A DNA stretch of 30,022 nt from a virus. The stretch covers positions 1 to 30,022 of the IMG/VR virus record IMGVR_UViG_3300027856_000373. One strand, given 5' to 3'. Every line of letters starts with the position of its first letter. Positions within the stretch are counted from its first letter, which is position 1. Positions 59-28,183 of this stretch are shown piece by piece. A model generated the notes under the pieces. That model was not told the origin of the DNA, made no database searches, and saw only the letters and a program-made list of their open reading frames with translations. Made by a program: the position numbers and the translations under genes.

Positions 59-1057
59 TCATTCCTCCGTATCCTTTGCTGTTAAATCGATCACATCTTT
101 GTGCCACGCGGTCGTTACGCGGGCCTCTTTGGCTGGCTGGGCTTTGTAGTGCTTCGGACGGTTCTCCCAGGTCACGAGCCAGTCGCCGCGCAGCAGGTTC
201 GTGCCCTGCTTGGCCTTGACCGTTTTCTCAACGACCTTCTCGGCTGCGTTGATTGCCTTGACATCTTCGGCGTGCTCTCGCAGGTACGTGAGCGCTTCGA
301 TCAGGGGCGCGTCATTGAACACCTCGACGCCCTTACCGGTCATGCACTCGGGGCAGCACAAAGAGTCGAAGCCGCACCGGCCGCACTCGGAGGCGTCGTT
401 GAGCTTATCAGGCGGGATTTCGGCGAGCACGTGCTCGTTGACCGTCGCAGCCTTTTGCAACAACGTCTCAGCGAAGGCCATGTCCAGAGCCAACGGGATC
501 ACCTTGATGTCGAACAGGTTCTCCTTGTTGATGAACAAAAACCAACCTTCGTCGAAGTTGCTGGCCAGCATATAGACCGTCAGTTGGGCGATGTAGTTGC
601 GCATCCACCACATAGTGCGCATACTGTCCAGATCGCTCAATCGCGCAAAGATATGGGCGGCAGCGGTCTTGACCTCACACGGGCCTTGCGTGACCCAGTG
701 TCCCCCGCTGCCACCCTCAAGCACTTGTAGAAACCAGTCAGGTCGGTAGCCGATCTGGTACTGGGTGATGAGCTTGTCGTTGACACTGATCTGCGGTATG
801 ACGATGCGCCACTGTGGGCAGCACGCCATGCCGATGCGGTTGTATAGTGTTCGGCAAAGGTCCTCGAGCTGCTTGCCGGTCTCCATGCGGCCTTGTGCGA
901 GGACCGGCCAAGAGCTGGCCTTCTGGCCTTCGGTGCGGTAATAAAAAAGCTTGCGCAGGCACGCCTCACCGAGTCGGCTCGCGTAGTTACTCGCGGCATT
1001 CTTCGGCGGCTGGGGCTGCATAGCCGCTGCAATATCGTTCATCAGGTCGGGTGTCAT
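59..1057 (-). CDS. PD-(D/E)XK exonuclease, Cas4/RecB-like with probable Fe-S cluster
   Basis: 332 aa, probably a phage recombination exonuclease that resects double-stranded ends. The PD-(D/E)XK nuclease core is visible as RPDW (Asp107), CEVK (Glu128, Lys130) and a following QLTVYM (Gln158, RecB motif QxxxY). One cysteine near the N-terminus (ACLRKLFY, Cys33) and a C-terminal cluster (Cys225, Cys228, Cys234/235, Cys238) match the split four-cysteine Fe-S site of Cas4/AddB-type nucleases. The start is fixed by an AAAGGAGAACGCG leader before the ATG. It follows a candidate annealing protein gene with one small gene between, the usual exonuclease-annealase pairing of phage recombination modules. 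The family is clear; the cluster and the polarity of digestion are inferred. Confidence 0.8.
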   Translation of the reverse strand: MTPDLMNDIAAAMQPQPPKNAASNYASRLGEACLRKLFYYRTEGQKASSWPVLAQGRMETGKQLEDLCRTLYNRIGMACCPQWRIVIPQISVNDKLITQYQIGYRPDWFLQVLEGGSGGHWVTQGPCEVKTAAAHIFARLSDLDSMRTMWWMRNYIAQLTVYMLASNFDEGWFLFINKENLFDIKVIPLALDMAFAETLLQKAATVNEHVLAEIPPDKLNDASECGRCGFDSLCCPECMTGKGVEVFNDAPLIEALTYLREHAEDVKAINAAEKVVEKTVKAKQGTNLLRGDWLVTWENRPKHYKAQPAKEARVTTAWHKDVIDLTAKDTEE

Positions 1058-1071
1058 CGCGTTCTCCTTTG

Positions 1072-1416
1072 CTAAATGGGTTCGGCATCACCATTTTGCT
1101 CCTGTAAGACGTGTGCTGCAATCATGGTCTCCGCTTGTGCTGCATCGATCTGCGCGAACAGCGATCGCATGTGATCAGCATGTTTAGCCGGGTCTTGTGT
1201 GTTATCGGTTACCAGTATGGCCAACGTAAATTGTGTTGGCGCGTGCTCTAAGTACCACGTTACTGCGCCGGTACGCAGCAGCTCAACCGTACAGACTACC
1301 TGCAACGGTTGCAGGCTCGCCCACTTGTCCGCCAGCTCGCGGGGGATGTCGGTCTTACCTCTGAACTTCTCCGTTGATCTGTGGATCTGTGTGTATCTAT
1401 AACAGTCAATTTCCAT
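1072..1416 (-). CDS. Hypothetical protein in recombination module
   Basis: 114 aa, not recognised. The start is the ATG at 1416 (MEIDCYRYTQ), preceded by AAGGAG with 7-base spacing. A longer reading from 1449 lacks such a site. The first 11 bases overlap the end of the upstream candidate annealing protein gene, so translation is probably coupled. No membrane segment or clear motif is seen. The composition is that of a small soluble protein with a helical C-terminal half ending in an acidic tail. Its position between candidate annealase and exonuclease genes suggests a recombination or replication accessory role, which is only inference. Confidence 0.75.
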   Translation of the reverse strand: MEIDCYRYTQIHRSTEKFRGKTDIPRELADKWASLQPLQVVCTVELLRTGAVTWYLEHAPTQFTLAILVTDNTQDPAKHADHMRSLFAQIDAAQAETMIAAHVLQEQNGDAEPI

Positions 1417-2371
1417 TGCCTGCTCCTTGTAATTGCTTGGCCATGTCACGCGCCGTTTTCAAGGTGCTGCCGAGCCACTTACCGCTAAGCTCGCGGATCG
1501 ACTTGCCGATGACACGTTTCTTATCCTTCTTGCTCCAGAAGCTGCTCAGGTTGACGCATATCTCCCGGCAGTGCTGCTCTTTCGTATACTCCGGGCCGGT
1601 CAATTCGGGGTCAAGCTCCACAAGGCTGTGGCCCTTCTCATCCTCAAACACAACAAGCATGTTGGCCCCGGCGAGCGCCAAGATGATCTCAGACAATTCC
1701 TGCCGGGCCTCGACGTCTTTTTCCGACGTGCCGCCTTCGCTGCCCTTGGCATAGTCGTGGGCTTTGGTCTTGCCGGCGTCTTGGCCGGTCTGCCCCATGA
1801 GCGACTTGAATCGTTCGACCGGCACGCCGCCGCGTAGGCCGAGCAAAGACTTGATCCCTGCGCCACGAAAAATGTGGTAGGCAGCCTGTCGCACGTTAGT
1901 CTCGTTGACATCCTCGACGGGCCGCAACTCGCCCTTGACGACGCCAACGAAAGGCTCACGCGATGAGTACTGGCCCTGGATGAAGTAACGTCGCGGTGGC
2001 ATGACTGCGTAGCCTGTATAGATGTAGCGATAACCCTCACCTTTGCTGTCTTTCCACGTTTCCTTGTTGAATGCGGCGTCCTCGAATTGAATCGGGAAAT
2101 GCCGTGCAATGCGTTCGGCTCCCGAACTGCTTAGGCATGCCTGGGCATCAGCCCCGCTGCCGAAGATATGCCAGTCTTCAGGAAACGTGCAGGACGCACA
2201 AATCTTCCAAACGGCGGCGTTAAACCGAGTAGCCAGTTCGGCCGCTTGCTCGGCGAGCAACGTCATTTCAAGCGGAGCGCTGACGAACTCCTGTCGAACG
2301 AGTGCGCTGCTTTCTGTCTCTACCGGCTCAGGGTCCGGCACTTCTTGGGGGGTTGCTTTCGTGTTGGTCAT
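1406..2371 (-). CDS. Candidate phage single-strand annealing/recombination protein
   Basis: 321 aa. The region around residues 55-130 (WKICASC, DWHIFGSGADA, LSSSGAERIARHF, then a basic YIYTGYAV segment) resembles phage recombination proteins of the type that begin with a compact nucleic-acid-binding core containing a G-x-E-x-I-x-x-x-F helix. A central NETNVRQAAYHIFRGAG stretch and a Lys-rich C-terminus follow. Its place two genes upstream of a PD-(D/E)XK exonuclease is the expected position of a Red-beta/RecT/Erf/Rad52-like annealase. I cannot assign a specific SSAP superfamily by eye. The start is supported by AAAGGAGAACAGCC before the ATG. Its first 4 bases (ATGA) overlap the stop of the upstream gene. 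Confidence 0.55.
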   Translation of the reverse strand: MTNTKATPQEVPDPEPVETESSALVRQEFVSAPLEMTLLAEQAAELATRFNAAVWKICASCTFPEDWHIFGSGADAQACLSSSGAERIARHFPIQFEDAAFNKETWKDSKGEGYRYIYTGYAVMPPRRYFIQGQYSSREPFVGVVKGELRPVEDVNETNVRQAAYHIFRGAGIKSLLGLRGGVPVERFKSLMGQTGQDAGKTKAHDYAKGSEGGTSEKDVEARQELSEIILALAGANMLVVFEDEKGHSLVELDPELTGPEYTKEQHCREICVNLSSFWSKKDKKRVIGKSIRELSGKWLGSTLKTARDMAKQLQGAGNGN

Positions 2372-4377: not shown

Positions 4378-4761
4378 CTACAGACCCATCTTGCAGCTGA
4401 ACGTCGTGGGGAACGCCAGCGGAATGCTGACGTCAACCTTGCCCTTGAGCGCTTGTGCAGTCGCGCCGGTCGGCTTGAGCGTCCGCTTGAGGCTGCGCAC
4501 TATGCCCTTCGCAAGCACGGCGTTAAGTCCGTCGAACCCTTCGATTCCGTTGCTCGGTCTGAGGTGGACTTCCAGCATGATGTTGCCGTCCGGATGCTGA
4601 AGGACCTCGGTGTGGACCTCGCAGTCGCATTTGATCAAAGCCGACAAAGTGGTTTTCGTTTTGCTGCTCTTGATCACTTTGGTTTTGGGTTCCCCGGCAG
4701 CATCGCTGCTCGGCACGGTGGCGGGCGACGCGCCCGCTGTTTCCTTTGTTGCCTTTGTCAT
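4378..4761 (-). CDS. Hypothetical protein
   Basis: 127 aa, not recognised. The N-terminal ~40 residues are a low-complexity, Ala/Ser/Thr/Lys-rich linker. A compact domain follows (LIKCDCEVHTEVLQHPDGNIMLEVHLRPSNGI in outline, then AVLAKGIVRSL) with strand-strand-helix character. It starts with AAAGGAGAACGCT before the ATG. No catalytic residues are recognisable. Its place in the early operon suggests a regulatory or accessory role. Confidence 0.65.
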   Translation of the reverse strand: MTKATKETAGASPATVPSSDAAGEPKTKVIKSSKTKTTLSALIKCDCEVHTEVLQHPDGNIMLEVHLRPSNGIEGFDGLNAVLAKGIVRSLKRTLKPTGATAQALKGKVDVSIPLAFPTTFSCKMGL

Positions 4762-4797
4762 AGCGTTCTCCTTTCAATAGAGGTTAGCAAAGACAAA

Positions 4798-4844: not shown

Positions 4845-5054
4845 TTATGATACCCCTCCACCTTCCCAGTAGTCGGCTAACCACGGGAAGCTAGCTGCTG
4901 TTTGGAATGTCACAAGAAGGTGGTGTTGCTCCATGTAATCTTTGACCTTGATTTGTAGGCGGTCATTTACTCGCCATACCTTAATCAGGCCACCATCTAG
5001 CCACCCAATCGCAAAATGATGGCCCATTAGAAATACTCTAACCGTTTTACTCAT
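4845..5054 (-). CDS. Small hypothetical protein
   Basis: 69 aa from ATG 5054, chosen because AAAAGGAGAACGCC precedes it; longer upstream readings have no support. The sequence (MSKTVRVFLMGHHFAIGWLDGG, described in parts) has alternating strands and a C-terminal aromatic helix (FPWLADYW). No family was recognised. It ends just before the T-arm-like hairpin. Confidence 0.65.
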   Translation of the reverse strand: MSKTVRVFLMGHHFAIGWLDGGLIKVWRVNDRLQIKVKDYMEQHHLLVTFQTAASFPWLADYWEGGGVS

Positions 5055-5078
5055 GGCGTTCTCCTTTTGAATGGTTGC

Positions 5079-5145: not shown

Positions 5146-5340
5146 TCATCTGAGCAGCGGACTCGTCGCGTCGTTCCACTCGGCCTCGGCTGCTTCGCGC
5201 GTCCAGCCGGTCGCCGCGAAGCCGCACGCACATCGTATCGCATACGAGCCGAACGGCGTGTCTCCTGCGACGATGTCCAAGCTGCCGCACTCCGGGCACG
5301 GGGCAAGGATGGTGGTAGTGTGTCTCAACATCGGATTCAT
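5146..5340 (-). CDS. Lar-like zinc-ribbon protein (restriction alleviation type)
   Basis: 64 aa from ATG 5340, fixed by CAAGGAGAACGCC. The order PCPECGS (two Cys), a short strand, YAIRCACGFAATGW (two Cys), and a final EAAEAEWN matches the Lar-like zinc-ribbon pattern (CPxCGS...CxxCGA...A...WN). Lar of Rac prophage modulates type I restriction-modification. Most phage homologues share only the fold, so an anti-restriction role is an inference. It is the first gene of the early operon, behind the structured leader and candidate promoter, a good place for a host-defence countermeasure. Confidence 0.7.
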   Translation of the reverse strand: MNPMLRHTTTILAPCPECGSLDIVAGDTPFGSYAIRCACGFAATGWTREAAEAEWNDATSPLLR

Positions 5341-5353
5341 GGCGTTCTCCTTG

Positions 5354-5451
5354 AAAAAGCGACGCGGGCAAAGCCTGAGACTTGTGGATAACAAGATTGG
5401 CTGGCCCGCGTCGCGGTTGAGTAAATCGGATTTGTTCTATCTTGTTATCCA
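5354..5451 (-). promoter_or_regulatory. Structured 5' leader: two interlocked perfect inverted repeats
   Basis: Repeat B: 5439-5451 and 5385-5397 are perfect 13-bp reverse complements (TGGATAACAAGAT on the RNA side). Repeat A: 5404-5414 and 5359-5369 are perfect 11-bp reverse complements (GCGACGCGGGC). In transcript order the arms are B', A', B, A, with spacers of 24, 6 and 15 bases, so the two stems interlock. The last A arm is followed at once by five T residues and then the CAAGGAG ribosome site of the first early gene. The layout fits either an H-type pseudoknot or a choice between a 13-bp hairpin and an 11-bp terminator-like hairpin ahead of the gene. Confidence 0.75.
5384..5392 (-). promoter_or_regulatory. 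Perfect DnaA-box-like sequence
   Basis: The minus strand reads TTATCCACA, identical to the strict DnaA box consensus, within and beside one arm of repeat B. The other arm (TTATCCATC) does not match. A single box may be coincidence, but the location between early and late operons is where an origin could lie. Confidence 0.35.
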
Positions 5452-5461
5452 TCACACTCAT

Positions 5462-5489
5462 ATTATCGGCTATATCTGCCGGGAAGCAA
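5462..5489 (-). promoter_or_regulatory. Candidate sigma-70-like early promoter
   Basis: On the minus strand TTGCTT (5489-5484) and GATAAT (5467-5462) are separated by 16 bases. The -10 element is good and the -35 matches only TTG. Predicted start of transcription is about 5455, a few bases before the first arm of the structured leader. It lies between the late-operon terminator and the first early gene, where a promoter is required. Confidence 0.45.
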
Positions 5490-5590
5490 AGCACAAAATC
5501 CAAAAAAGGCACATTTATTTTGTCGGCCGTAAGTCTTTATGTGGTAAAGGGTTAGGGTAGCAGGTGGTAAGCAAGCCGATAAAATGGGTC

Positions 5591-5622
5591 AAAAAAACGG
5601 GCCGTCTGACTGCAGACGGCCC
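5591..5622 (-). terminator. Strong intrinsic terminator ending the late operon
   Basis: A perfect 10-bp stem (5613-5622 with 5599-5608, GGGCCGTCTG on the RNA) and a 4-base loop are followed, in the minus direction, by G and seven T residues (5597-5591). It lies about 40 bases after the stop of the lipoprotein gene and before the early promoter, so it separates late from early transcription. Confidence 0.9.
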
Positions 5623-5661
5623 ATTTGGAACAGACGCCGCATGGTGTCGGAGATGTCGCGG

Positions 5662-17701: not shown

Positions 17702-18265
17702 CTACGCCTTCTGCACTTGTACCGCAATAAAGCCGAGCCGGTCACCGGCTGTCCGATCCGCATCAGCGAGCGACGTCCATTCGATGTCCTCGATAATGAC
17801 GTCGCGCTCCGCAAATGGGATGTTGAGCACTCGATTGCTGACGGCCTGATACATGACGACGATGATCTTCTTGTCGGTATCCTGTGCGAGCTGGTGCTCA
17901 AAGCGCAGAGATACCTCGCTGACCGTCTTGTCGTCGCCGACGTGGATCACGTCAAAGCTATCGTCGGCCGCCGCCGAGTAGCTTGACGGATCGTAGTCGG
18001 GAAAGCTCTGTGACGCACCCACTGCCGTGCTAATGCCCAGTGCCAGCCGCATGTTGGCAGTCTTGATCTCGGCCAGCCTCGCCGTCAACCGAAAAACCTC
18101 GCCGGTCACGAACCGTTTAACGGATGCGTTCATATTCGACGGCCGGAAGTCGACGAACTCGGACTCTAAGGTGAGCACAACGTCGCCTTGCAGGTGCCCG
18201 ACATCCACGTTGTTGAGGTACAAGTCGCCGCTACCCAGCGTAACTTGTGTGCTGTCCTTACCCAT
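17702..18265 (-). CDS. Tail tube-like protein, copy 1
   Basis: 187 aa. The same fold landmarks as copy 2 (LGSGDLYLNNVDVGHL, MRLALGIS, FDVIHVGD, LRFEHQLAQDTDKK) show tandem duplication. Which of the two forms the tube cannot be decided from sequence. Its start overlaps the end of the GT4 glycosyltransferase gene by 8 bases, so the glycosyltransferase lies directly upstream in the same operon. Confidence 0.7.
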   Translation of the reverse strand: MGKDSTQVTLGSGDLYLNNVDVGHLQGDVVLTLESEFVDFRPSNMNASVKRFVTGEVFRLTARLAEIKTANMRLALGISTAVGASQSFPDYDPSSYSAAADDSFDVIHVGDDKTVSEVSLRFEHQLAQDTDKKIIVVMYQAVSNRVLNIPFAERDVIIEDIEWTSLADADRTAGDRLGFIAVQVQKA

Positions 18266-19226
18266 GATTCTTACCTTTCAAATGTCCAAAAAACCGCACG
18301 TACTGCGCTGCCATCGCTTTAATGTCATGGTGCTTTTCAGCAAAGCGCCTGCCGCCCACAGCCAGCCGCTCTTGCAATGTCGGGTCGCCGATCAGCCGGT
18401 CAATCTTTGCGATGATGTCGTCAATGTGGCGTTCGATCCAAAGCACATTTTCTCCGTCCACCAGCCGTTCGCCGTGAAAACCGACTTGAGTAGTCAAGAC
18501 AGGCACGCCACACGCAAGGGCCTCGGTAATGACGTTAGAGCATCCTTCACTGAGACTTGGCAGCACCAGGCAATCAATGCCGTGGTAGAACTCACGCGGC
18601 ATCTCTGCATGGCGCACTTTGTTCAGATGGTTCAGCCGTTTGCTGATTTCGATCCGCCCGAACATGCGGGTGGTAGCGCCTACCCAATAGCGGTAGCCCT
18701 TATGCGTCAGGCCTTGCTTGACGATGTTGCCTGCAAAGCCAACAGTGAATGCCCTGCCGGCAGGTTGTGGGGCAGGCTTGAATACTTCGAGATCAACGCC
18801 GTTGGCAATCAGCACAGCGTTCTCATTGACGCTTCGGGCTACGCTGTAGAGAGCGTCATTCGTTGCGATGATACCCCGGCAGCTTTGGAGCCATTCGTTG
18901 TAGCGGTCGGCGGCGTATTGCTCATTGACGACCATTCCCGCGCTGCGGCAAACCGCGTTGCTCAGGTCCTCCATCAGCGGCAGCGTATCAACGTTCTGTA
19001 CGAGCACGAGATCGAAGTGCTTTGTCAGGCCAGCACCGATCATGGGTGGCACAACGGTGTGGTCCGTCACCTCATGGCAGACATTGCAGACGAGTTGAAT
19101 ATCGATCTTCGTCCATCGCAAAAAGCGGGCCACCTGCCAGCCATGCCAATGCGGGATGTACTCGTCTATCGTCTCGCCCCAAGACCAGTTGCTTGCATGG
19201 TCGATTGTTAACAGGGTTGGGCTCAC
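18258..19226 (-). CDS. GT4-family glycosyltransferase (intact)
   Basis: 322 aa from GTG 19226, supported by GGGAG 7 bases before it and by the tail-terminator stop codon next to it; a longer reading from 19337 is unsupported. C-terminal GT-B domain: GFAGN (163-167), HKGYRYW, then the E-x7-E motif in SEGCSNVITEALACGVP (Glu227, Glu235) and VGFHGERLVDGEN. It transfers an activated sugar to an acceptor. It sits between the tail terminator and tail tube genes, so virion glycosylation is an attractive but unproven role. The split GT at 20000-21003 is a paralogue. Confidence 0.85.
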   Translation of the reverse strand: MSPTLLTIDHASNWSWGETIDEYIPHWHGWQVARFLRWTKIDIQLVCNVCHEVTDHTVVPPMIGAGLTKHFDLVLVQNVDTLPLMEDLSNAVCRSAGMVVNEQYAADRYNEWLQSCRGIIATNDALYSVARSVNENAVLIANGVDLEVFKPAPQPAGRAFTVGFAGNIVKQGLTHKGYRYWVGATTRMFGRIEISKRLNHLNKVRHAEMPREFYHGIDCLVLPSLSEGCSNVITEALACGVPVLTTQVGFHGERLVDGENVLWIERHIDDIIAKIDRLIGDPTLQERLAVGGRRFAEKHHDIKAMAAQYVRFFGHLKGKNHG

Positions 19227-19227
19227 G

Positions 19228-19635
19228 TTATTGCTCCCACACGATAAATTCGTAGCGGGCTTGCTGGTAGTAGCACTTGAGGTCGGCGTCGTACAGCTCA
19301 GGACCAAGGCCCTCCCAGAAGCATTTGAGCATATCATAGTCGTCGGCTGTGAAGGTCTGCTCGTGCAGCAGGGCCTCGATGCGGTCGAGGATGTCCACCC
19401 AAGCGCCGGCAGCCCACACGGTGAAGCCCATCAGGATGCGGCGAGGCTTGTATCCGACGCCAGAGATCACTGAGTAGGTGATGTACGGTGGTGTGGTATT
19501 CTCCGGCGGGAAGCTGTGATAAACGCCGTAAGGCGCAGTACCCGTCTTGCCCAGCAATGCACCGAGTTGACCGGCCCCGGCGTTCTGGGCGTCGGTACTC
19601 AAAATCGAGTAGACAGCTTCTTTCAGCGAAGCCAT
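19228..19635 (-). CDS. Tail terminator/completion protein (DUF3168-like)
   Basis: 135 aa. LKEAVYSIL start, PYGVYHSFPP, PYITYSVISG and a C-terminal helix-strand end fit the DUF3168/tail terminator proteins that cap the tail tube and join it to the head. Position after the gp10-like gene and before the tube agrees. Only 3 bases separate it from the gp10-like gene upstream. Confidence 0.75.
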   Translation of the reverse strand: MASLKEAVYSILSTDAQNAGAGQLGALLGKTGTAPYGVYHSFPPENTTPPYITYSVISGVGYKPRRILMGFTVWAAGAWVDILDRIEALLHEQTFTADDYDMLKCFWEGLGPELYDADLKCYYQQARYEFIVWEQ

Positions 19636-19638
19636 ACG

Positions 19639-20052
19639 CTACGGCCCCCCCTCTACGCCTGCTTCGTCCTTGAGCGCCACCAAAAAAGAGTTGCGGTGCG
19701 CGTGCAGCGCTGGCATCAGGTAGGGATATGGCCGGGACTTGCTGGTGCCCAACTCGACGAAGACGCCGTACTCCGCACCGACGACGACGGACGCTTCGAT
19801 GGCCTCGTTGGTGATGGTCGCATCTGTTGGCTGGATCGACTCGACAAGAACGTCGGTTTGTGTCTCAAAGCGGCCCCTGGCGTGTGGGTTACTGCCTCGA
19901 TCATGCTGATCTGCGGCGTGCTTAGTAACCCTAACGGCCGTGTTTTCGCAGGCGCGGACTATGCCGCCAAGCATATCAGCTTGGGCGGCGATCATCCGGT
20001 TAAGGATGTGCTGCTGGCCCTCGATGTTCGGTTCTGTCGCCACTTCGACCAC
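19639..20052 (-). CDS. HK97 gp10-like head-tail component
   Basis: 137 aa. The C-terminal GVFVELGTSKSRPYPYLMPAL is a clear HK97-gp10-family signature (Y-x-x-x-x-E-x-G-T, R-P-P-L-P-A). It acts in the connector or tail completion. It starts within the end of the split GT C-terminal ORF, a 53-base overlap, which suggests the glycosyltransferase was inserted or the ends have been extended. Confidence 0.85.
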   Translation of the reverse strand: MVEVATEPNIEGQQHILNRMIAAQADMLGGIVRACENTAVRVTKHAADQHDRGSNPHARGRFETQTDVLVESIQPTDATITNEAIEASVVVGAEYGVFVELGTSKSRPYPYLMPALHAHRNSFLVALKDEAGVEGGP

Positions 20053-20755
20053 CTTGCTGCCTGTCGAGCACCGATTTGAATACGGCGTCGTACATGGCCG
20101 CTACCTTCCGAACATCGTGGTGCTGCTCGGCGAAGGCACGTCCATTGATCGACAGACGCTTTCTAAGGTCGGGTTCGGCGATGAGCCGTCGAATTGCTGT
20201 TACTATTTGCTCAGTCGTATGGGCACTTGGCCCAGTCAGGTCGCGCTCAATATACAGCACGTCGTGGCCATTTGTCAAGCGTTCTCCGTGAAATCCTACT
20301 TTGGTCATCACAACGGGCACGCCACATGCCAGGGCCTCGCTCACCACATTGGAGCACCCCTCGCCCTTACTCGGCAGGACCAAAACGTCGATTAGCTGGT
20401 AGAACTGCTCTGGCATGGCGTCGTGGGGAATCTGGTTGTGCTTGTGGAGTAGGTACTTGGGCTTCACATCGTCGCTGGTTGCCAGTTCGAGACTGGCCCG
20501 CACAAAGGCGTCCCAGCCCTTGTAGGTGCCGCCAGCACCCCACGTATTGCCTGCAAAGCCCATTGTGAAGGGCCTATCGTAGTTGGGGTTCGGTTCGCCC
20601 GGCTTGAAGTGGTCCAGGGGTACGCCGTTGGGGATCACGGTGACGTTCTCGTTGGCAGCCCGGCCGACAGTCGCCAAGGCGTCATTGGTGGCGATGACTG
20701 CCGCGACGCTCTTGATATCCTCAAAATACCGCTTTGGGTCGAGTTCAGGTATCAT
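20000..20755 (-). CDS. GT4 glycosyltransferase, C-terminal half (split gene)
   Basis: 251 aa. Contains VIATNDALATVG, GFAGNTWGAGGTYKGWDAF, and the GT4 E-x7-E region GEGCSNVVSEALACGVPV followed by KVGFHGERLTNG. It starts by an ATGA overlap with the stop of the 83-aa ORF that supplies the N-terminal domain. Together the two give about 330 aa, like the intact paralogue at 18258-19226. Either the protein works as two chains or the junction carries a one-base indel at CAAATG. The C-terminal ~25 residues overlap the gp10-like gene. Confidence 0.75.
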   Translation of the reverse strand: MIPELDPKRYFEDIKSVAAVIATNDALATVGRAANENVTVIPNGVPLDHFKPGEPNPNYDRPFTMGFAGNTWGAGGTYKGWDAFVRASLELATSDDVKPKYLLHKHNQIPHDAMPEQFYQLIDVLVLPSKGEGCSNVVSEALACGVPVVMTKVGFHGERLTNGHDVLYIERDLTGPSAHTTEQIVTAIRRLIAEPDLRKRLSINGRAFAEQHHDVRKVAAMYDAVFKSVLDRQQGGRSGDRTEHRGPAAHP

Positions 20756-21003
20756 TTGTCAAACTCTCCTGGGAACAGCTTTATGGCGTTCAAATGCTGC
20801 ACGATGACCGGGCCAACGGGCAAGCACCGCAGTATTCGTGGGTCCGGACAGACGACGATATCGGCCTCGATCAGCGGGGCGAACCCTTGGGCCGGGTAGC
20901 ACACAATCTCGTGCTCGTAGCCCGGCATCGCTGCCGCCAACGCCCGCGCCCTGTTATCGTATGCCCAACCGGGTACGTCTGTCAACCATGCGATTCTTTC
21001 CAT
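20752..21003 (-). CDS. GT4 glycosyltransferase, N-terminal half (split gene)
   Basis: 83 aa. Rossmann-like N-terminal domain: IAWLTDVPGWAYDNRARAL, AMPGYEHEIV, EADIVVCPDPRIL, VIVQHLNAIKLFPGEFDK, then TGA. In the family this continues directly into the C-terminal domain. It shares the W-x-x-D-x-x-G-W-A-Y-[DE]-N-R opening with the two small ORFs at 21972-22283 and 22258-22617. It overlaps the upstream CgeB-like gene by 22 bases. Confidence 0.7.
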   Translation of the reverse strand: MERIAWLTDVPGWAYDNRARALAAAMPGYEHEIVCYPAQGFAPLIEADIVVCPDPRILRCLPVGPVIVQHLNAIKLFPGEFDK

Positions 21004-21953
21004 TGTGCGTAAACTTCCAGTATTTGAGCGGCCCGGTGCTGGATCATGTGCCGCTTCTGCACCAGCTTTTGGCCAGCGGGGGCGATGTACCTCCAGGCGT
21101 CACTGCCCAGGACGCGAGACAACTCAAACTTGTCGCTGGGGTCGTGCAGCTTGATGTACGTTTCGCCGTCTACAAGGCCGTAATCGGCACATCGTGGTGC
21201 TTCCGGCATCACCAAGCACGCGCCAGCATTCATCACTTCGATGCACTTGGCCGGGATACACACGTCCCAAGTACCAGCCGTCACATAGTACCGCGCGTTG
21301 CCGATGATATACTGGTAGCGGTCGGTGCTGATTGGGTAACGACACTGGTTATTCGTTGATGCGACGAGAATGCCGTCCCGTTCCTCATCTGCTATCTGTT
21401 GCAGGTTCTCCATGATGACGGTGCGCTGCGGATAACACGGGTAGCCAAAAGCCCCGGTTGAAACTGCCGTATAGAGCTTGTCGGCGATGTACGGTTTGGC
21501 TTCAAGCTCAAACCAGCCCATCGGAACCACTTGGCAGTCATAGGGCTTGCATAGCTCGGCAAGATGCGGGCGCGGATCGTGCAGGCTGAAAAGCACGTCC
21601 GGTTTGGTGCTGCGCAGCCAGAGTTCGAGCTGTCGCTCGTTGCCCTCCACGTCGTCGATGCAGCCATAGACGAAACTACCGAACGTAGGCAGTGGCCGTC
21701 GCAGCGGCGGGTCGAACGGCTGGCAATAGGTGATGTTGTGTGGGATATCAATAATCTGGTAGGGACGAATCCGGTCCAGTGAATTATCGTAATTGAACGC
21801 TCTTCCGACGAGCGTGGCGTTACCGAGCAGCTTAGGCAAGGCGATGCCCAGCGCTGTCTCCCACCATCGCCTCGCTCCAAGGCCCGGCAAGCTCATGCCG
21901 AAGCCCTCCTGCTTGTCGGGGCAATACTTATAGTAGCTGGCGACTGTAAGCAT
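20982..21953 (-). CDS. CgeB-like glycosyltransferase (GT-B), copy C
   Basis: 323 aa. The C-terminal part matches the Glyco_trans_1_2/CgeB-like pattern also seen in the two genes at 24076-26060: IPAKCIEVMNAGACLVMPEAPRCADYG, GETYIKL, a W-R-x-I-x-x-A-G-Q-x-[LM]-V motif and [HR]-H-x-I-Q-H-R-A. The N-terminus (YYKYCPDKQEGFG) parallels the SCYKVL opening of its relatives. It is thought to be a retaining GT-B sugar transferase of unknown acceptor. Confidence 0.8.
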   Translation of the reverse strand: MLTVASYYKYCPDKQEGFGMSLPGLGARRWWETALGIALPKLLGNATLVGRAFNYDNSLDRIRPYQIIDIPHNITYCQPFDPPLRRPLPTFGSFVYGCIDDVEGNERQLELWLRSTKPDVLFSLHDPRPHLAELCKPYDCQVVPMGWFELEAKPYIADKLYTAVSTGAFGYPCYPQRTVIMENLQQIADEERDGILVASTNNQCRYPISTDRYQYIIGNARYYVTAGTWDVCIPAKCIEVMNAGACLVMPEAPRCADYGLVDGETYIKLHDPSDKFELSRVLGSDAWRYIAPAGQKLVQKRHMIQHRAAQILEVYAQWKESHG

Positions 21954-21971
21954 TTGCTTATCTCCTGTCGG

Positions 21972-22283
21972 TCATCCTTCTGGCAAAGTCATATCATCAG
22001 CCAATTGGCGGGTATAGGGCGCTGCGACCACCTCAAATGGCCTCATTCCCGTCAGCATTATCACGACCTTGTGGCGGCAATCCGACGGCACATAGTTGAC
22101 GTATCGCAGGTACATGGCGATGATTACATCAGCATCGCGACTAGCAGCCACAATCACAGGAGTGTCCGGCGGCACGCAAAACGCGAGCTTGTGCTTGTGC
22201 TGCGACAGTTCGCTGCTCACGTGCCCCACAATCGCAGAGTAGGCCCACTCAGGGCCGTCAGCCAGCCACAGGATTTTCGCCAT
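21972..22283 (-). CDS. Stand-alone GT N-terminal-domain-like protein
   Basis: 103 aa from ATG 22283 (AAAAGAGAAACGCCG before it; 26-base overlap with the upstream ORF). MAKILWLADGPEWAYSAI resembles the Rossmann start of the split GT, followed by DADVIIAMYLRYV and a VVIML strand. No catalytic C-terminal domain follows: the ORF stops after TLPEG. Role unknown; possibly a binding partner of the nearby transferases or a decayed gene. Confidence 0.6.
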   Translation of the reverse strand: MAKILWLADGPEWAYSAIVGHVSSELSQHKHKLAFCVPPDTPVIVAASRDADVIIAMYLRYVNYVPSDCRHKVVIMLTGMRPFEVVAAPYTRQLADDMTLPEG

Positions 22284-22617
22284 CGGCGTTTCTCTTTTGC
22301 TGAAGGAAGTCTTTGAATGGCCCGTCAAAGAAATCATAGTACACGCCGCCATGGTCGATGCGCATGCTGTCAAGTCTCAAGACCACATTGCCGACGTCAA
22401 CGTCATTCTGCACCAGCCGGTCCGGCCACTTGACGCCTTGGCAGACCACAATATCAGCTTGAGCGCACAGCATTTTCCACAGACACGGTGGTACGGAATT
22501 GGACATCATCACCCGGTGCTCGTACTGCGGCATCGCCCGGCGCATAACCTGTACGCGGTTCTCATAGGCCCAGCCCTTGACGTCGGCAGTCCACAGAATT
22601 ATCGGCTTATCAGTCAT
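22258..22617 (-). CDS. Stand-alone GT N-terminal-domain-like protein
   Basis: 119 aa. IILWTADVKGWAYENRVQVM, RAMPQYEHRV and QADIVVCQGVKW align by eye with the N-terminal domain of the split GT at 20752-21003, but the protein ends after DGENPVAG with no GT4 C-terminal domain. It shares its first base with the final base of the methyltransferase stop codon. Confidence 0.6.
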   Translation of the reverse strand: MTDKPIILWTADVKGWAYENRVQVMRRAMPQYEHRVMMSNSVPPCLWKMLCAQADIVVCQGVKWPDRLVQNDVDVGNVVLRLDSMRIDHGGVYYDFFDGPFKDFLQQKRNADGENPVAG

Positions 22618-23165
22618 CAGTCATGTATCCAAGCTATGAGAGCATCGAGCGGGAAGTCGGTATCCTCAAGGCGCGCGCAGTACCGACGGTTGATCTGCAT
22701 AATGGCATCCAAGATGTCGGCCAGCAAGATACACCCCCACTTCGGTAAACCGCTGCGACGAAAATACCGTATGTCGTCAATCATTATAGTATGGTTCTTG
22801 TTGTGGTGCTTGCCGATCTGCGTAAGCTCGTCGAGCAATGGGCACTTGCTGACGCCATTGCCAAGCTCTGGTTCGCCGGTAGACCAGTGCGCATCCAACC
22901 AGAAACATGCCTTGCCGTCGATGCCATGCAGTAGGTCCGGCAAAACCACTCTGCTGTCGCCCAAGAGTATTTGCACATTGGGCACGCTGATGAAGCGCTC
23001 GTTAGCCGCCCGCCAGGTATCGGGGTTGGCTTCGATGCTGAAAATGTCCGTGAAGCCGTGAGCGATAGCCAGTTGCACGCCCTCACCCTTTGCTGTGCCC
23101 GTCTCGATGAAGGTGTTGCAGTCATAGGCGTAGTGGTTAAGTAAGCGGGGTTTCAGAGTAGTCAT
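22617..23165 (-). CDS. SAM-dependent methyltransferase (class I, Methyltransf_24-like)
   Basis: 182 aa. The SAM-binding motif is FIETGTAKGEG (19-29), followed by SIEANP (acidic residue at end of strand 2), LLGDSRVVLP, FWLDAHWS and IMIDDIRYF. These features match methyltransferases found beside glycosyltransferases in glycan clusters. It likely methylates a sugar or a small precursor. It overlaps the FkbM gene by ATGA. Confidence 0.8.
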   Translation of the reverse strand: MTTLKPRLLNHYAYDCNTFIETGTAKGEGVQLAIAHGFTDIFSIEANPDTWRAANERFISVPNVQILLGDSRVVLPDLLHGIDGKACFWLDAHWSTGEPELGNGVSKCPLLDELTQIGKHHNKNHTIMIDDIRYFRRSGLPKWGCILLADILDAIMQINRRYCARLEDTDFPLDALIAWIHD

Positions 23166-23896
23166 GGCTTTCCTTGTTTGTGTACTGCCAGCACGTTTAT
23201 GGTGCAGGCCTTGCTGTTATCCATCGCCTCGATGGTGTCCACAGTAATGTGCTGCTGCTTGCAAGTTTGCAGTTCATAGCCGCAGCGCAGCAGTGTGTCG
23301 GCGGCCAGGCAGCCAGGTTCACCCAATGTCAATTCTATAACAATGACAGGATGGAAGGTCTCTATCGAACCGACCATTCCGGGCAGCACGTGGTGCTCGG
23401 TGAAATCTACGTCAATCTTCACGAAGTCTAAGCGGTCGTGCCGCCAGGCTGAGTCAAACGTTGTGCACGATATGCAGTAATCATCATCTTCTTCACAACA
23501 CCACCAGCAGACCGTTGCTGACGAATGATACGGCGGGCCTTCGGGTGTTATCCAAGCGATGCCGGCCTTTTCCATGAGAGCAAACGGCCACAGAGTTACG
23601 TTATCGCACGCATTTTCGCGCACGTGCTTGAGCAACCGCCGCATGAAACCATACTCCGGCTCGACAGCCACTACTTTACCGGTCGGCCCTACCATGCGGC
23701 TCATCGGTAACGTGAAACACCCGAAGTTCGCACCGATGTCGGCCACAACCATCCCCGGCTTGATGTACTGCTTGCACCATGCGACCATATCCAGATCATA
23801 GTAGCGGCCAGCCGCAATCTCATTGTCAACATTGCTCGGCAACCGCAGGTGCCACGTGAAGCCGTCAAACTCAACTGTCTTATGCTGCTGATCCAT
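23162..23896 (-). CDS. FkbM-family methyltransferase
   Basis: 244 aa. Motif I is VADIGANFGCFTL (51-63), then KVVAVEPEYGFM, a DFVKIDVDFTEHHVLPGM motif (in most relatives this is IDVEG-E; here IDVDFTE) and VIVIEL. The FkbM family O-methylates glycans and natural products. It follows glycosyltransferase genes and precedes another methyltransferase, so two-step decoration of a sugar is plausible. Confidence 0.85.
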   Translation of the reverse strand: MDQQHKTVEFDGFTWHLRLPSNVDNEIAAGRYYDLDMVAWCKQYIKPGMVVADIGANFGCFTLPMSRMVGPTGKVVAVEPEYGFMRRLLKHVRENACDNVTLWPFALMEKAGIAWITPEGPPYHSSATVCWWCCEEDDDYCISCTTFDSAWRHDRLDFVKIDVDFTEHHVLPGMVGSIETFHPVIVIELTLGEPGCLAADTLLRCGYELQTCKQQHITVDTIEAMDNSKACTINVLAVHKQGKP

Positions 23897-24098
23897 CAGA
23901 TTTTATCCCCAACCATTGCCGAAAATCGTGCCAGCACTTGTCACACACGATGTAATATATTTCAGTCAGCTTGCCATCTGCATTATTGTCGTAAACCATT
24001 ATGGTATGTCCACCAATACCAGATGTCGTTTCTATTAACTCTGCCCGTTTAGTACGGCCGATCTCGGTTGGACATCTATCGCAGATTAGTGTTTGCAT
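23880..24098 (-). CDS. Small zinc-ribbon-like protein
   Basis: 72 aa with two CxxC-type pairs (CDRC at the N-terminus and CDKC about 50 residues later) and a helix after the second pair (WHDFRQWLG). It looks like a two-strand zinc finger. It overlaps the end of the upstream CgeB-like gene by 23 bases and the FkbM start by 17. Its role is unknown. Confidence 0.6.
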   Translation of the reverse strand: MQTLICDRCPTEIGRTKRAELIETTSGIGGHTIMVYDNNADGKLTEIYYIVCDKCWHDFRQWLGIKSDGSAA

Positions 24099-25080
24099 CA
24101 GTCATCTCCTTGTAAATAGCAACGATATCTTTGGCTCGCTGTTCGATGCTGTGACGCTCCTGGACCATTCTCTGCCCGGCCGGGCCGATTTTTCGCCACG
24201 ACTCATCGTCGTCGAGAATCATCGGTATTTGGTCGATGCACTCGATAGGGTAGTAGGTTTCCCACGGAACAAAACCGCTGGCTTCCATCATCGGCATATC
24301 CGGCGAGACGAGGCACGCACCGTAGTTGCAGACCTCATAGTACTTTGGCGGGATCTGTAGGTCATAGATGCCCCCGGAGAAGTAGTAACGAGTTGCCGCC
24401 AATGCCTCGTGATACTCCTTGTGGCTCATCCAAAACTCGTGGTCGGTTTGACTGCCGCTGAGTACGACATCGTCGCGCCCCAATGAATGCAGCAAGTGAA
24501 AGCTGTCATGGCGAAATGGATAGGTGCTCGGTGCAATCCTGCCGGTGCACATACCTTTCCAACCTCTGGCCGCCGTGCAAGTCGTGATGTTATGTGGGTT
24601 AAACCAAGGCAGGTAGACGACGCGGCAGCCATGCGACCCGCACTGATTCACAAGATTGGGCAGTGCTCCGAGTTGCGGCAGCTTTTCCAAGCGAAGCGGC
24701 GGGGCCAGCGGATATTGCAATGATATGATCAGATCGGGCTGTGCTCCAACCAAAAAATCCTCAAGCACGCCTTCCATGCCGATGTAGTCGCTGACGACTG
24801 ACCACACGAAGCAATCGGGTCGGTCATGCGGTGGATCGAAGGCTTCAAGATAGGCCATATCAAAGTTGTCTGTAGGGGGGTCATAAGCAACCAGATCACG
24901 GTTGTCGCGGCCCCGCTTTCGGTGGCTCAGCACAAGCTCACAATCCAACAGGGTTGCGATGCGCTGCTGTAAGGCTATGCCTACCTCGTTTTGCCAGTAC
25001 AGGCCGCCGCCTTGACCGACGCCGCCGAAGGTTGGATCGTCGTCACGCAATACTTTGTAGCAAGATAGAATTGAACTCAT
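24076..25080 (-). CDS. CgeB-like glycosyltransferase (GT-B), copy B
   Basis: 334 aa. SCYKVLRDDDPTFGGVGQGGG opening (cited in part), PDLIISLQYPLAPP, LPWFNPHN, then the catalytic-domain block IPPKYYEVCNYGACLVSP, GFVPWETYY, SWRKIGPAGQRMVQERHS. It is a close paralogue of the next gene upstream, an apparent tandem duplication, and overlaps it by ATGA. Confidence 0.8.
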   Translation of the reverse strand: MSSILSCYKVLRDDDPTFGGVGQGGGLYWQNEVGIALQQRIATLLDCELVLSHRKRGRDNRDLVAYDPPTDNFDMAYLEAFDPPHDRPDCFVWSVVSDYIGMEGVLEDFLVGAQPDLIISLQYPLAPPLRLEKLPQLGALPNLVNQCGSHGCRVVYLPWFNPHNITTCTAARGWKGMCTGRIAPSTYPFRHDSFHLLHSLGRDDVVLSGSQTDHEFWMSHKEYHEALAATRYYFSGGIYDLQIPPKYYEVCNYGACLVSPDMPMMEASGFVPWETYYPIECIDQIPMILDDDESWRKIGPAGQRMVQERHSIEQRAKDIVAIYKEMTDANTNLR

Positions 25081-26060
25081 GTCATTGCGCGGATGATTTC
25101 AGCAATCTCACGCGCCCTCATTGCCATGCTGTGGTGTTTATGCACCATGCGCTGACCAGCTATGCCGATGCGACGCCACGATTCTTCATCTTCTATGACG
25201 CGGCCTATTTCGCCGGGCGTGTATCCGACTTGCATATAGGTTTCGCCGTCAATGAAGCCGCACGACTCCATCAGTGGCATGCCATGTGATACTAAGCACG
25301 CGCCATAATTACAAACCTCAAAGTATTTCGGTGGGATTTGAAAGTCATAGATGCCGCCGCTAATAAAGTACCGGCTGGTTCGCAGTCGCAGTTGATATTG
25401 CTCGTCGGTTAAGGCGAAGTCATCTGGCGACCGGCCGACAGAAACGACAATGTCATCGCGATGAAGGTTCGTCAAGTATGACGATGCCATGTAGCGGAAC
25501 GGATAACTGCTCGTGACCTTGCCGGTGCACATTGCAGTAATCGGTTTTGGAATGGCCGCAACAGGTTGGTTGAGTTCATTGAACCACGGTAGGCTTATAG
25601 CGCGGCATCCGTGCGATTCGCATTGGCTTACCAAATCTGGGAGTACAACGCCGAAAGGCAGCCAGGGTAGCGTTTTTGGCGGGATGAGCGGATACTGCAA
25701 GCTGATGAGCAAGTCGGGTTCTGCCGCAGCTAACCATTGGTCCAGCGTGTTCTCCATACGAATGTAGTCGCTGAGTATCGACCAGACGAACGCGGCGGGC
25801 TTATGAGTTGGGAGGTCAAACAGTTGGACGTAAGCGACGTCGAAGTCCTTGTGGGGTGGGTCGTATGGTTGTACGTCGTAGCTGTCGCGGCCATGAGGCC
25901 GAACATGCAATTCAACTTGACCGCCGAGGTGCGCGGCAATTTCCTGTTGCAACCGAACCCCGACCACATCCGCCCACCAGCCGCCGCCTCCTTGACCAAC
26001 GCCGCCATCCAGAATGACGTGTGGGTTTAAGACCTTGTAGCAGCTCAGTATACGATTCAT
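25077..26060 (-). CDS. CgeB-like glycosyltransferase (GT-B), copy A
   Basis: 327 aa. SCYKVLNPHVILDGGVGQGGG opening, PDLLISLQYPLIPP, LPWFNELN, IPPKYFEVCNYGACLVSHGMP, GFIDGETYMQVGYTP, SWRRIGIAGQRMVHKHHS. This is the best-conserved of three copies and has its own AAAAGG ribosome site. CgeB-type GT-B enzymes are sugar transferases; substrate unknown. Confidence 0.8.
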   Translation of the reverse strand: MNRILSCYKVLNPHVILDGGVGQGGGGWWADVVGVRLQQEIAAHLGGQVELHVRPHGRDSYDVQPYDPPHKDFDVAYVQLFDLPTHKPAAFVWSILSDYIRMENTLDQWLAAAEPDLLISLQYPLIPPKTLPWLPFGVVLPDLVSQCESHGCRAISLPWFNELNQPVAAIPKPITAMCTGKVTSSYPFRYMASSYLTNLHRDDIVVSVGRSPDDFALTDEQYQLRLRTSRYFISGGIYDFQIPPKYFEVCNYGACLVSHGMPLMESCGFIDGETYMQVGYTPGEIGRVIEDEESWRRIGIAGQRMVHKHHSMAMRAREIAEIIRAMT

Positions 26061-26087
26061 GGTATGTACCTTTTGCGATTTCTTTTC

Positions 26088-26411
26088 TTATCTATTCGGT
26101 GGTGGCTCAGGGAGTTCTTCATTTTTGGTATTCGCCATGCGCGCTATGAGGGCCCGCTTGACTTGTGCAGGGTTGAATAGCACGGTGCCTTCAGCCTCAA
26201 CACAGGGTAAGAGGTTGGCTTTCGCTTGACTTACCAGCCAATGGCGGCCGACACCTAACATGCGGGCCATAGTCCGCGCATTCACGATGTCTGGCTCTAG
26301 CGCTGGGCCAGACGGATGCGGAGCAGGCGGAGCAGGCGGAGCAGGCGGAGGTGGAGGCTTTGTGATCCCCTTTGGAGGGTACCTTGGAGGCTTGCATCGT
26401 GGTTCCATCAT
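26088..26411 (-). CDS. Pro-rich protein with excisionase-like HTH
   Basis: 107 aa. Residues about 8-40 are a Pro-rich, Ala/Pro repeat tract (the DNA shows GGAGCAGGC repeated three times on the plus strand near 26320-26350). Residues about 42-90 (DIVNARTMARMLGVGRHWLV, then LPCVEAEGTVLFNPAQVKRAL) look like a winged HTH of the excisionase/MerR-like type. The role in a glycan cluster is unclear. It may be a regulator or a DNA-binding adaptor. Confidence 0.55.
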   Translation of the reverse strand: MMEPRCKPPRYPPKGITKPPPPPAPPAPPAPHPSGPALEPDIVNARTMARMLGVGRHWLVSQAKANLLPCVEAEGTVLFNPAQVKRALIARMANTKNEELPEPPPNR

Positions 26412-26422
26412 CTTTTAATTCC

Positions 26423-28183
26423 TCAACCGAAGTGCTTCTTCATCCACAGGTGCAGCATCAAGATAATCCACAACTCATGGCCGATGCTTGTGCGATTGCG
26501 CAGGTGGGCTTCGACGCGCTCCGCGACTCGGTCAGCCTGCAAGACGTCCCACGGCCAACACGGGTCAGTCATCATGGTCAATAGCATATCGACGCCGGTC
26601 TGCTCGCGGAACCACTCATTCATCGGCACTGAGAAGCCCCGCTTGGGTCGCAGCAGCACCCACGTCGGCAGTACATTTTGAAAAGCCTCGCGCAGGATGT
26701 ACTTGCCGGTGTCGGCAAATACCTTCTGGTCGTCAGGTATCGCCAAGGCCAATTCGAGAACCTTATGGTCCAGGAACGGGCACCGCACCTCGACGGATGC
26801 AGCCATTGACGCCCGCTCCATTTTGACAATGATGTCGTTGGGCAGGTACGTCATCATATCCAGCCACATCCACTGGTTCAGCACGCCCTTGGCCGGGCAG
26901 TCCATCGCGTGATTCAGCAGCCAGACCCGCGTATTGAGTGCGTCCTTGACTTGCTCTTTGAATGGCTCGGCCAGCATTGCGTTGCGCTGCACCATCTGTA
27001 TCGGCATCATCCAATTGGTATAGCCGACAACGCCGTGTCGCCTGTCGGCTACCCAGTATCGCTCGTAGCCGCCAAACGCCTCATCGCCGCCGTCGCCGCT
27101 CAAAGCTACAGTGATATACTTTTTGCTAGCTTCACAGAGCAGCATCGTCGGGATTGCCGAGTAGTCGCCGAAGGGCTGGTCGTATTGCGCCACGATGCGG
27201 TCGGCCATTACGGGCAGGCTCACCGACTCGCAGACGTGCTCGTGATGCACGGTGCCCAGCTCGTCGGCGAGCCGCTTGGCGTAGGGCAGCTCATTGTAGC
27301 GGTCGTCTTGAAAGCCCATGCTGAACGTGTGCAGCTCAGGCACAAGCTTGTTAGCTACGGTTGCGATAATGCTACTGTCGATGCCGCCGGACAAGTACAC
27401 GCCAAGCGGCACATCGCTCTCCATGCGGCCCGCAACGGCCCGGTCAACGACATCTCGCACTACTATTGGGTTAATATCCAGGTAATTGCCGGGATCGAAC
27501 TCGTGCCAACGCGCGATGGTAAATGAGCCTTCTGTGGGTCGATAGATTGCCATGCAGCCCGGCGACACGCACATTATGCCCTTGTATGCCGTTGCAGGTT
27601 CAGGCACGTACTGTAGGGACAGGTAATCGCACAGGCCGACTGGATTGATCTGCTTATCGACAAGAGGATGGACCAAAAGGGCCTTGATCTCGCTACCCGC
27701 CAGGAGCACGTTACGCTGCTCATCCCAGAAGTAGTAGAGCGGCTTCTTACCGATGCGGTCGCGCACCAAGTACAGCGCCTCTCTGGTGCGGTCCCACACG
27801 GCGAAGGCAAACATTCCTTCCAGCGTCGTCACGCAATCCGGCCCGTCGGCTTCCCAGGCGCGAGCCAATGCTTCGGTATCGCATTGGGTCTTGAACGGGC
27901 CGCCTGTCAGTGTGAGGTTGTGCCGCAGCCAGCGGTGATTGTAGATTTCGCCGTTGAACACCAGTGACGCGCCGCCGCGGTGCATGGGTTGTTTGCCGTG
28001 CTCGCGGTCCAGGATGGCCAGACGACGCATGCCAAGGTTGACGGCCCACTCATTGGAGCTGACGTTGAGGTAGCCTTGCCCGTCCGGACCTCGGTGCGTA
28101 ATAGCCGCGGCCATTAGTTCGACCTTAGCCGAGCCGGGCTCAATAAAACAGCGGCTGCCCGCTTCTACTACGATGCCACACAT
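26423..28183 (-). CDS. asnB: Asparagine synthetase B (glutamine-hydrolysing)
   Basis: 586 aa, full length. Cys2 is the class II glutaminase nucleophile (MCGIV). RRLAILD and NGEIYNH complete the glutaminase domain. The synthetase domain carries the PP-loop LSGGIDSS (264-271) and SGDGGDEAFGGY, so both active sites look intact. It makes asparagine or, in glycan clusters, amidates a uronic acid or similar. The neighbouring GT, FkbM and MTase genes favour an amidotransferase role in surface glycan synthesis; amino-acid supply during infection is the alternative. AAAGGAATATGGC precedes the ATG. Confidence 0.92.
   Translation of the reverse strand: MCGIVVEAGSRCFIEPGSAKVELMAAAITHRGPDGQGYLNVSSNEWAVNLGMRRLAILDREHGKQPMHRGGASLVFNGEIYNHRWLRHNLTLTGGPFKTQCDTEALARAWEADGPDCVTTLEGMFAFAVWDRTREALYLVRDRIGKKPLYYFWDEQRNVLLAGSEIKALLVHPLVDKQINPVGLCDYLSLQYVPEPATAYKGIMCVSPGCMAIYRPTEGSFTIARWHEFDPGNYLDINPIVVRDVVDRAVAGRMESDVPLGVYLSGGIDSSIIATVANKLVPELHTFSMGFQDDRYNELPYAKRLADELGTVHHEHVCESVSLPVMADRIVAQYDQPFGDYSAIPTMLLCEASKKYITVALSGDGGDEAFGGYERYWVADRRHGVVGYTNWMMPIQMVQRNAMLAEPFKEQVKDALNTRVWLLNHAMDCPAKGVLNQWMWLDMMTYLPNDIIVKMERASMAASVEVRCPFLDHKVLELALAIPDDQKVFADTGKYILREAFQNVLPTWVLLRPKRGFSVPMNEWFREQTGVDMLLTMMTDPCWPWDVLQADRVAERVEAHLRNRTSIGHELWIILMLHLWMKKHFG

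Follow-up and report, generated by a model that had tools for sequence, protein, structure and literature searches.

A candidate transcription attenuator of interlocked layout in the leader of a phage DNA-metabolism operon

The leader of a phage operon headed by a Lar-like gene carries two interlocked inverted repeats, and these data indicate a real, strongly non-random leader element, represented by a single sequence, whose most probable role is that of an attenuator with an unusual, interlocked arrangement. To the more specific proposal, that this leader acts in cis as a transcription attenuator of the phage DNA-metabolism operon behind it, we give about as much weight for as against. The DNA analysed was a virus record of 30,022 bases, taken in full and referred to here as the window (IMG/VR IMGVR_UViG_3300027856_000373), and its source is an uncultured tailed phage without close known relatives. 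All of the predicted genes examined in the window lie on the minus strand, as does the leader. Read from right to left, head-completion and tail genes (tape measure and tail tip) are followed by the operon in question, which comprises the Lar-like zinc-ribbon gene, several unknown genes, a recombinase-like gene and a Cas4-like exonuclease. The name ‘early operon’ would follow from this content of recombinase-like, Cas4-like exonuclease and Lar-like genes; the Lar-like assignment itself corresponds to a Pfam E-value of 1.6e-4, which is below the curated cut-off, and to an E-value of 2.9e-4 for PHROG 599. A stretch of 321 nt without a predicted gene separates the tail/head block from this operon, with an intrinsic terminator (5622-5590) at its start and the interlocked leader at its end. 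With this terminator the upstream block ends, and transcription arriving from that side should be kept out of the leader. The features discussed below are, in the direction of transcription:

5590–5622, minus strand: intrinsic terminator of canonical form at the end of the preceding operon (stem GGGCCGTCTG, T7)
5462–5489, minus strand: weak promoter-like pair TTGCTT-16-GATAAT (8/12 match, predicted start about 5455)
5439–5451, minus strand: B' arm, TGGATAACAAGAT, 5' strand of the hairpin predicted to form first
5404–5414, minus strand: A' arm, GCGACGCGGGC, 5' strand of the terminator-like stem
5385–5397, minus strand: B arm, ATCTTGTTATCCA, partner of B', or one strand plus the loop of the terminator's apical hairpin
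5381–5395, minus strand: CTTGT-TATCC-ACAAG dyad, in RNA the 5-bp apical hairpin of the terminator and also a dyad in DNA
5359–5369, minus strand: A arm, GCCCGCGTCGC, 3' strand of the terminator-like stem
5354–5358, minus strand: T5 (U-tract), directly after stem A
5347–5352, minus strand: Shine-Dalgarno AAGGAG, within a 15-mer, AAGGAGAACGCCATG, common to other genes of the Lar-like operon
5146–5340, minus strand: gene for the Lar-like zinc-ribbon protein (64 aa, ATG at 5340), first behind the leader
1406–2371, minus strand: recombinase-like gene, about 28% identical to a gene of MW202801 that likewise adjoins an exonuclease
59–1057, minus strand: Cas4-like exonuclease

The original prediction had described two perfect repeats, of 13 and 11 bp, in the order B', A', B, A, with a T5 run immediately before the ribosome site, and both were located on the minus strand. 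Read 5' to 3', the layout is B', a spacer of 24 nt, A', 6 nt, B, 15 nt, A, TTTTT (5358-5354), C and then AAGGAG from 5352, B'/B being the perfect 13-bp repeat and A'/A the perfect 11-bp repeat. This is the sole interlocked pair with both arms of at least 9 bp in the 30-kb window; shuffled windows held a mean of 0.23 such pairs, and a pair with both arms of at least 11 bp occurred in none of 150. When the 321-nt intergenic stretch was shuffled 20,000 times with its dinucleotides preserved, a repeat of at least 13 bp appeared in seven shuffles, one of at least 11 bp in 156, and an interlocked 11/11 arrangement in none (0/20,000). The interlocked repeats are thus far from a chance pattern. Simple inverted duplication was rejected as their origin, as it would give a nested order (A B B' A'), yet the order is interlocked. 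The A' arm, lying inside the B'/B loop, could also fold on itself as a small CCGC/GCGG hairpin.

In RNA, the segment from A' to the U-tract can fold into a single rod of 11, 4 and 5 pairs (20 bp), in which the A'/A stem is extended by AGCC/GGCU and by an apical CUUGU/ACAAG hairpin with a 5-nt loop. The predicted energy of this hairpin is −34.4 kcal/mol (z −7.9), and none of 200 shuffles was as stable. The 11-bp stem consists mostly of G-C pairs and is followed at once by UUUUU, the combination of stem and U-tract that marks an intrinsic terminator. A scan for perfect stems of at least nine pairs followed by T5, with loops of up to 60 nt and 100 shuffled windows as the control, found two places in the window, the A hairpin and the upstream terminator at 5622-5590; the pattern was absent from all of the shuffled windows (0.00 expected). 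The perfect A arms are 34 nt apart, so a scan limited to short loops (3-8 nt) misses them, although the inner 4-bp and 5-bp stems leave an apical loop of only 5 nt. The weak points of the hairpin are its short U-tract (U5 and then C), the lack of an A-tract and the long gap between its main arms. It is oriented with the genes, and its end lies immediately ahead of the Shine-Dalgarno, so that no promoter would fit in between. Given this position of the T5, any Lar-like transcript that starts upstream of A' must pass the hairpin, and a conditional terminator would be the simplest reading of such a structure before the Lar-like gene.

A candidate promoter just before the arms had also been proposed, but this part of the original prediction was not supported, as 8/12-type sites were no more frequent in the region than by chance (three found compared with 2.4 expected) and a stricter scan returned no site. 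Inverted near-copies (14/16) of AGCCGATAAWATGRGT, possibly regulator sites, occur at 5456-5471, overlapping the promoter-like −10, and at 5574-5589, just behind the upstream terminator.

The order of pairing was followed by folding the transcript length by length from an assumed start at 5455. The predicted probability of B'/B is about 1.0 at transcript lengths of 69 to 90 nt and that of A'/A is about 1.0 from about 93-96 nt onward, with fold energies near −21 kcal/mol at the B'/B stage and then near −38 kcal/mol. The native combination of stability at the early stage, stability at the late stage and number of pairs lost was equalled by none of 2000 shuffled leaders. The predicted sequence of B'/B and then A'/A provides the earlier-forming, competing alternative pairing that distinguishes an attenuator. 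B comprises the 5' strand and the loop of the apical hairpin, which B' matches over 13 consecutive bases, and the competition is topological and kinetic, with no strand common to both stems. Since B' is ready before the terminator can close, it should be able to delay that closure. In equilibrium folding the terminator wins whether B' is free or not, so that any effect of B'/B would have to be kinetic or depend on a factor. The position of the true start is relevant here, because transcripts that start at or above 5461 are predicted to form a local hairpin (UGAGU/ACUCA, GGAU/AUCC) that would hide part of B'. An earlier suggestion of either a pseudoknot or a switch between a terminator and an alternative stem fared unevenly: the terminator-like A'/A stem with its U5 and the early B'/B pairing speak for the switch, whereas the energy of the pseudoknot is ambiguous.

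In the mechanism that we propose, B'/B would form while only B', A' and B have left the polymerase, and this pairing would represent the antiterminator state. We favour it as the state that permits readthrough, since it takes away the apical hairpin from which the terminator would otherwise nucleate, leaving A' to close across a 34-nt loop held by the 13-bp helix, so that the polymerase would often read through. If B' were unavailable to B, whether owing to protein binding, to another RNA or to a local 5'-end hairpin, the terminator would zip up and transcription would end without reaching the Lar-like gene or those that follow. Were both stems to coexist, the final product would be an H-type pseudoknot. 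Against attenuation stands the fact that the stems are not strictly exclusive, A and B sharing no strand, and B'/B might leave termination untouched. We also suggest, more tentatively and as something that we would not expect to be the case, a kinetically gated pseudoknotted terminator, in which an upstream strand captures the terminator's apical loop without a shared antiterminator strand, a topology absent from the families checked. Such gating could possibly be exerted by a phage or host factor on the 5' arm.

Among the ways in which phages are known to control early transcription are antiterminator proteins (N and Q), put RNAs and antisense immunity RNAs, to which a leader gating its own terminator via loop capture would, if true, be a compact addition, protein-free or protein-assisted. 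It would also be a clean test case of whether a pseudoknotted hairpin can still terminate transcription, and the element, at about 115 nt, is small enough to suit an ordinary reporter assay. In timing, the leader resembles transcription-attenuating riboswitches that combine a pseudoknot with an intrinsic terminator, such as the fluoride/crcB riboswitch, where a pseudoknotted pairing and the intrinsic terminator downstream of it, both ahead of the first gene, refold as the RNA is transcribed (PMC11077080); the leader likewise has an upstream pairing and an intrinsic-terminator-like hairpin before its first gene. The riboswitch pseudoknot overlaps the terminator sequence, an overlap to which that paper gives a section (PMC11077080), whereas the stems of the leader, with 13 and 11 perfect pairs, share no strand, and the leader has no known aptamer and no Rfam match. 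The put RNA of HK022, at the beginning of an early phage transcript, is likewise structured and has a bearing on termination (PMC9378689). However, its two separate stem-loops modify the polymerase to pass distant terminators, whereas the leader stems interlock and one is itself terminator-like. By analogy, the leader resembles a transcription attenuator in how it would work, and it is a proven member of none of the systems compared.

The interlocked arms could alternatively serve after transcription, as a stable pseudoknot of the H type, with a B stem of 13 bp and an A stem of 11 bp, that a phage or host protein binds or that shields either the 5' end or the loading of ribosomes, with termination of minor importance, although we consider this unlikely. 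Both stems may coexist in this way because they share no strand, and the two helices have the interlocked H-type arrangement, with loops of 24, 6 and 15 nt that are long enough to span them. Sterically, both stems could be held in one pseudoknot, and a rough and crude estimate of −31 to −38 kcal/mol places its energy near the −38.3 kcal/mol of the nested fold, so that the comparison is ambiguous. The position 5' of a ribosome site recalls the translational operator of T4 gene 32, also a pseudoknot-capable phage leader (PMC535899), but that operator is about 28 nt long, precedes the gene for a single-strand-binding protein and acts on translation, whereas here the arms are much longer and are followed by a U-tract and a Lar-like gene. 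Stems of 13 and 11 bp are long for a protein-binding pseudoknot, a U5 straight after a GC-rich stem would be needless for a translational operator, and the Shine-Dalgarno is unpaired in predicted folds starting at 5475 or later.

The presence of a terminator directly behind a structured leader would also fit a gene for a small RNA of about 100 nt (about 5455-5354), the terminator leaking into the operon and the RNA acting in trans; this RNA might, for instance, act on the readthrough transcript or function in superinfection or immunity. The P4 CI RNA, the IsrK RNA of Gifsy-1 and C4-type RNAs offer precedents, with complementary segments in a phage leader and both terminated and readthrough transcripts, and in the first two a leader terminator that can make a short RNA; the two forms of a single leader are documented for IsrK, and the P4 CI RNA brings about premature termination in P4 (PMC4825925). 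We nevertheless consider this quite unlikely for the present leader, which has no Rfam match and hence none to the curated C4 family, and carries one copy per arm pair. A search of the rest of the window for additional operator copies or second targets of the B or A arms gave nothing convincing, and no repressor, antirepressor or immunity gene was seen adjoining or nearby.

We also considered whether the B repeats might be DNA sites, namely two inverted repressor or DnaA sites about 54 bp apart in a promoter or origin region, with A as a plain terminator. B contains a perfect DnaA-box match, TTATCCACA, at 5391-5383, inside the perfect 15-bp CTTGT-TATCC-ACAAG dyad, and the spacing corresponds to about five helical turns. 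However, B' keeps only seven of the nine DnaA-box bases and one half of the dyad, and the 13 identical bases begin upstream of both box and dyad. Because the right half of the dyad is lost at B', the contiguous 13-bp match, which includes the loop, favours RNA pairing over two protein sites. No second DnaA box with 0-1 mismatch occurs in the intergenic region and the GC skew shows no marked turn, so that the several boxes and skew turn of a replication origin are not seen; the interlocking with A would, moreover, be left unexplained. We regard paired DNA sites as improbable, and a DnaA-regulated promoter or origin is disfavoured by the lone box, the absence of a skew turn and the partial retention of the box at B'. 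The intergenic stretch holds two 15-bp dyads with 5-bp arms and a 5-bp spacer, at 5536-5550 and 5381-5395 (minus strand; CTTTACCACATAAAG and CTTGTTATCCACAAG).

Translation-coupled attenuation, in which ribosomes on a frame from ATG 5461/5452 (MSVMDNKIEQIRFTQPRRG...) block terminator folding, is very improbable, as neither ATG is preceded by a Shine-Dalgarno, there is no run of regulatory codons, and the frame, although open through the leader with a codon score above those of the other two frames, meets no stop codon close to the terminator and continues to 5051, overlapping the Lar-like gene in a different frame. A leader peptide was likewise rejected, since the frame lacks a ribosome site and any stop ahead of the gene. 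Since this open frame crosses the leader with a roughly neutral codon score (0.008, compared with 0.07 to 0.20 for genes), some coding constraint on the leader is possible.

Relatives of the leader were sought at the RNA, protein and DNA levels. Rfam gave no match to the leader at the gathering score, and at E≤10 returned only chance matches and a match of terminator shape at 5584-5647. Searches of viral contigs with the Lar-like, recombinase-like, exonuclease, tail-tip and tape-measure proteins yielded no relative close enough for a leader comparison, and a search of genome contigs with the recombinase-like protein yielded no close relative; these single-protein scans rest on a few short peptide patterns, with partial coverage of proteins and collections, and may miss relatives. 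Nor did a close relative emerge when viral contigs were searched with two leader patterns, or when phages and plasmids were searched at the DNA level. The distant relatives found were Hydrogenobaculum phage 1, L002 (27% identity to the tail-tip protein) and a spring-water podovirus (MW202801.1), in which recombinase-like and Cas4-like exonuclease genes are neighbours at 22-28% identity. This neighbour pair points to a protein family, as yet without a name, that is linked to phage recombination.

Some further observations concern the operon and the window at large. The ribosome-site 15-mer, AAGGAGAACGC(C)ATG, precedes four operon genes (5338-5352, 5052-5066, 4759-4773 and 1055-1069, minus strand), two of the copies being exact and two having one mismatch; with up to three mismatches allowed, there are eight sites compared with 0.9 expected. 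Amid the phage structural genes, a large block of sugar- or modification-type genes (18258-28183, minus strand) encodes several glycosyltransferase-like proteins, an FkbM methyltransferase and a full-length asparagine synthase. At 28235-29824 (minus strand) lies a gene for a 529-aa protein with many degenerate repeats (S-V-SDT-T-VAES-like) and a phage head-completion domain toward its C-terminal end.
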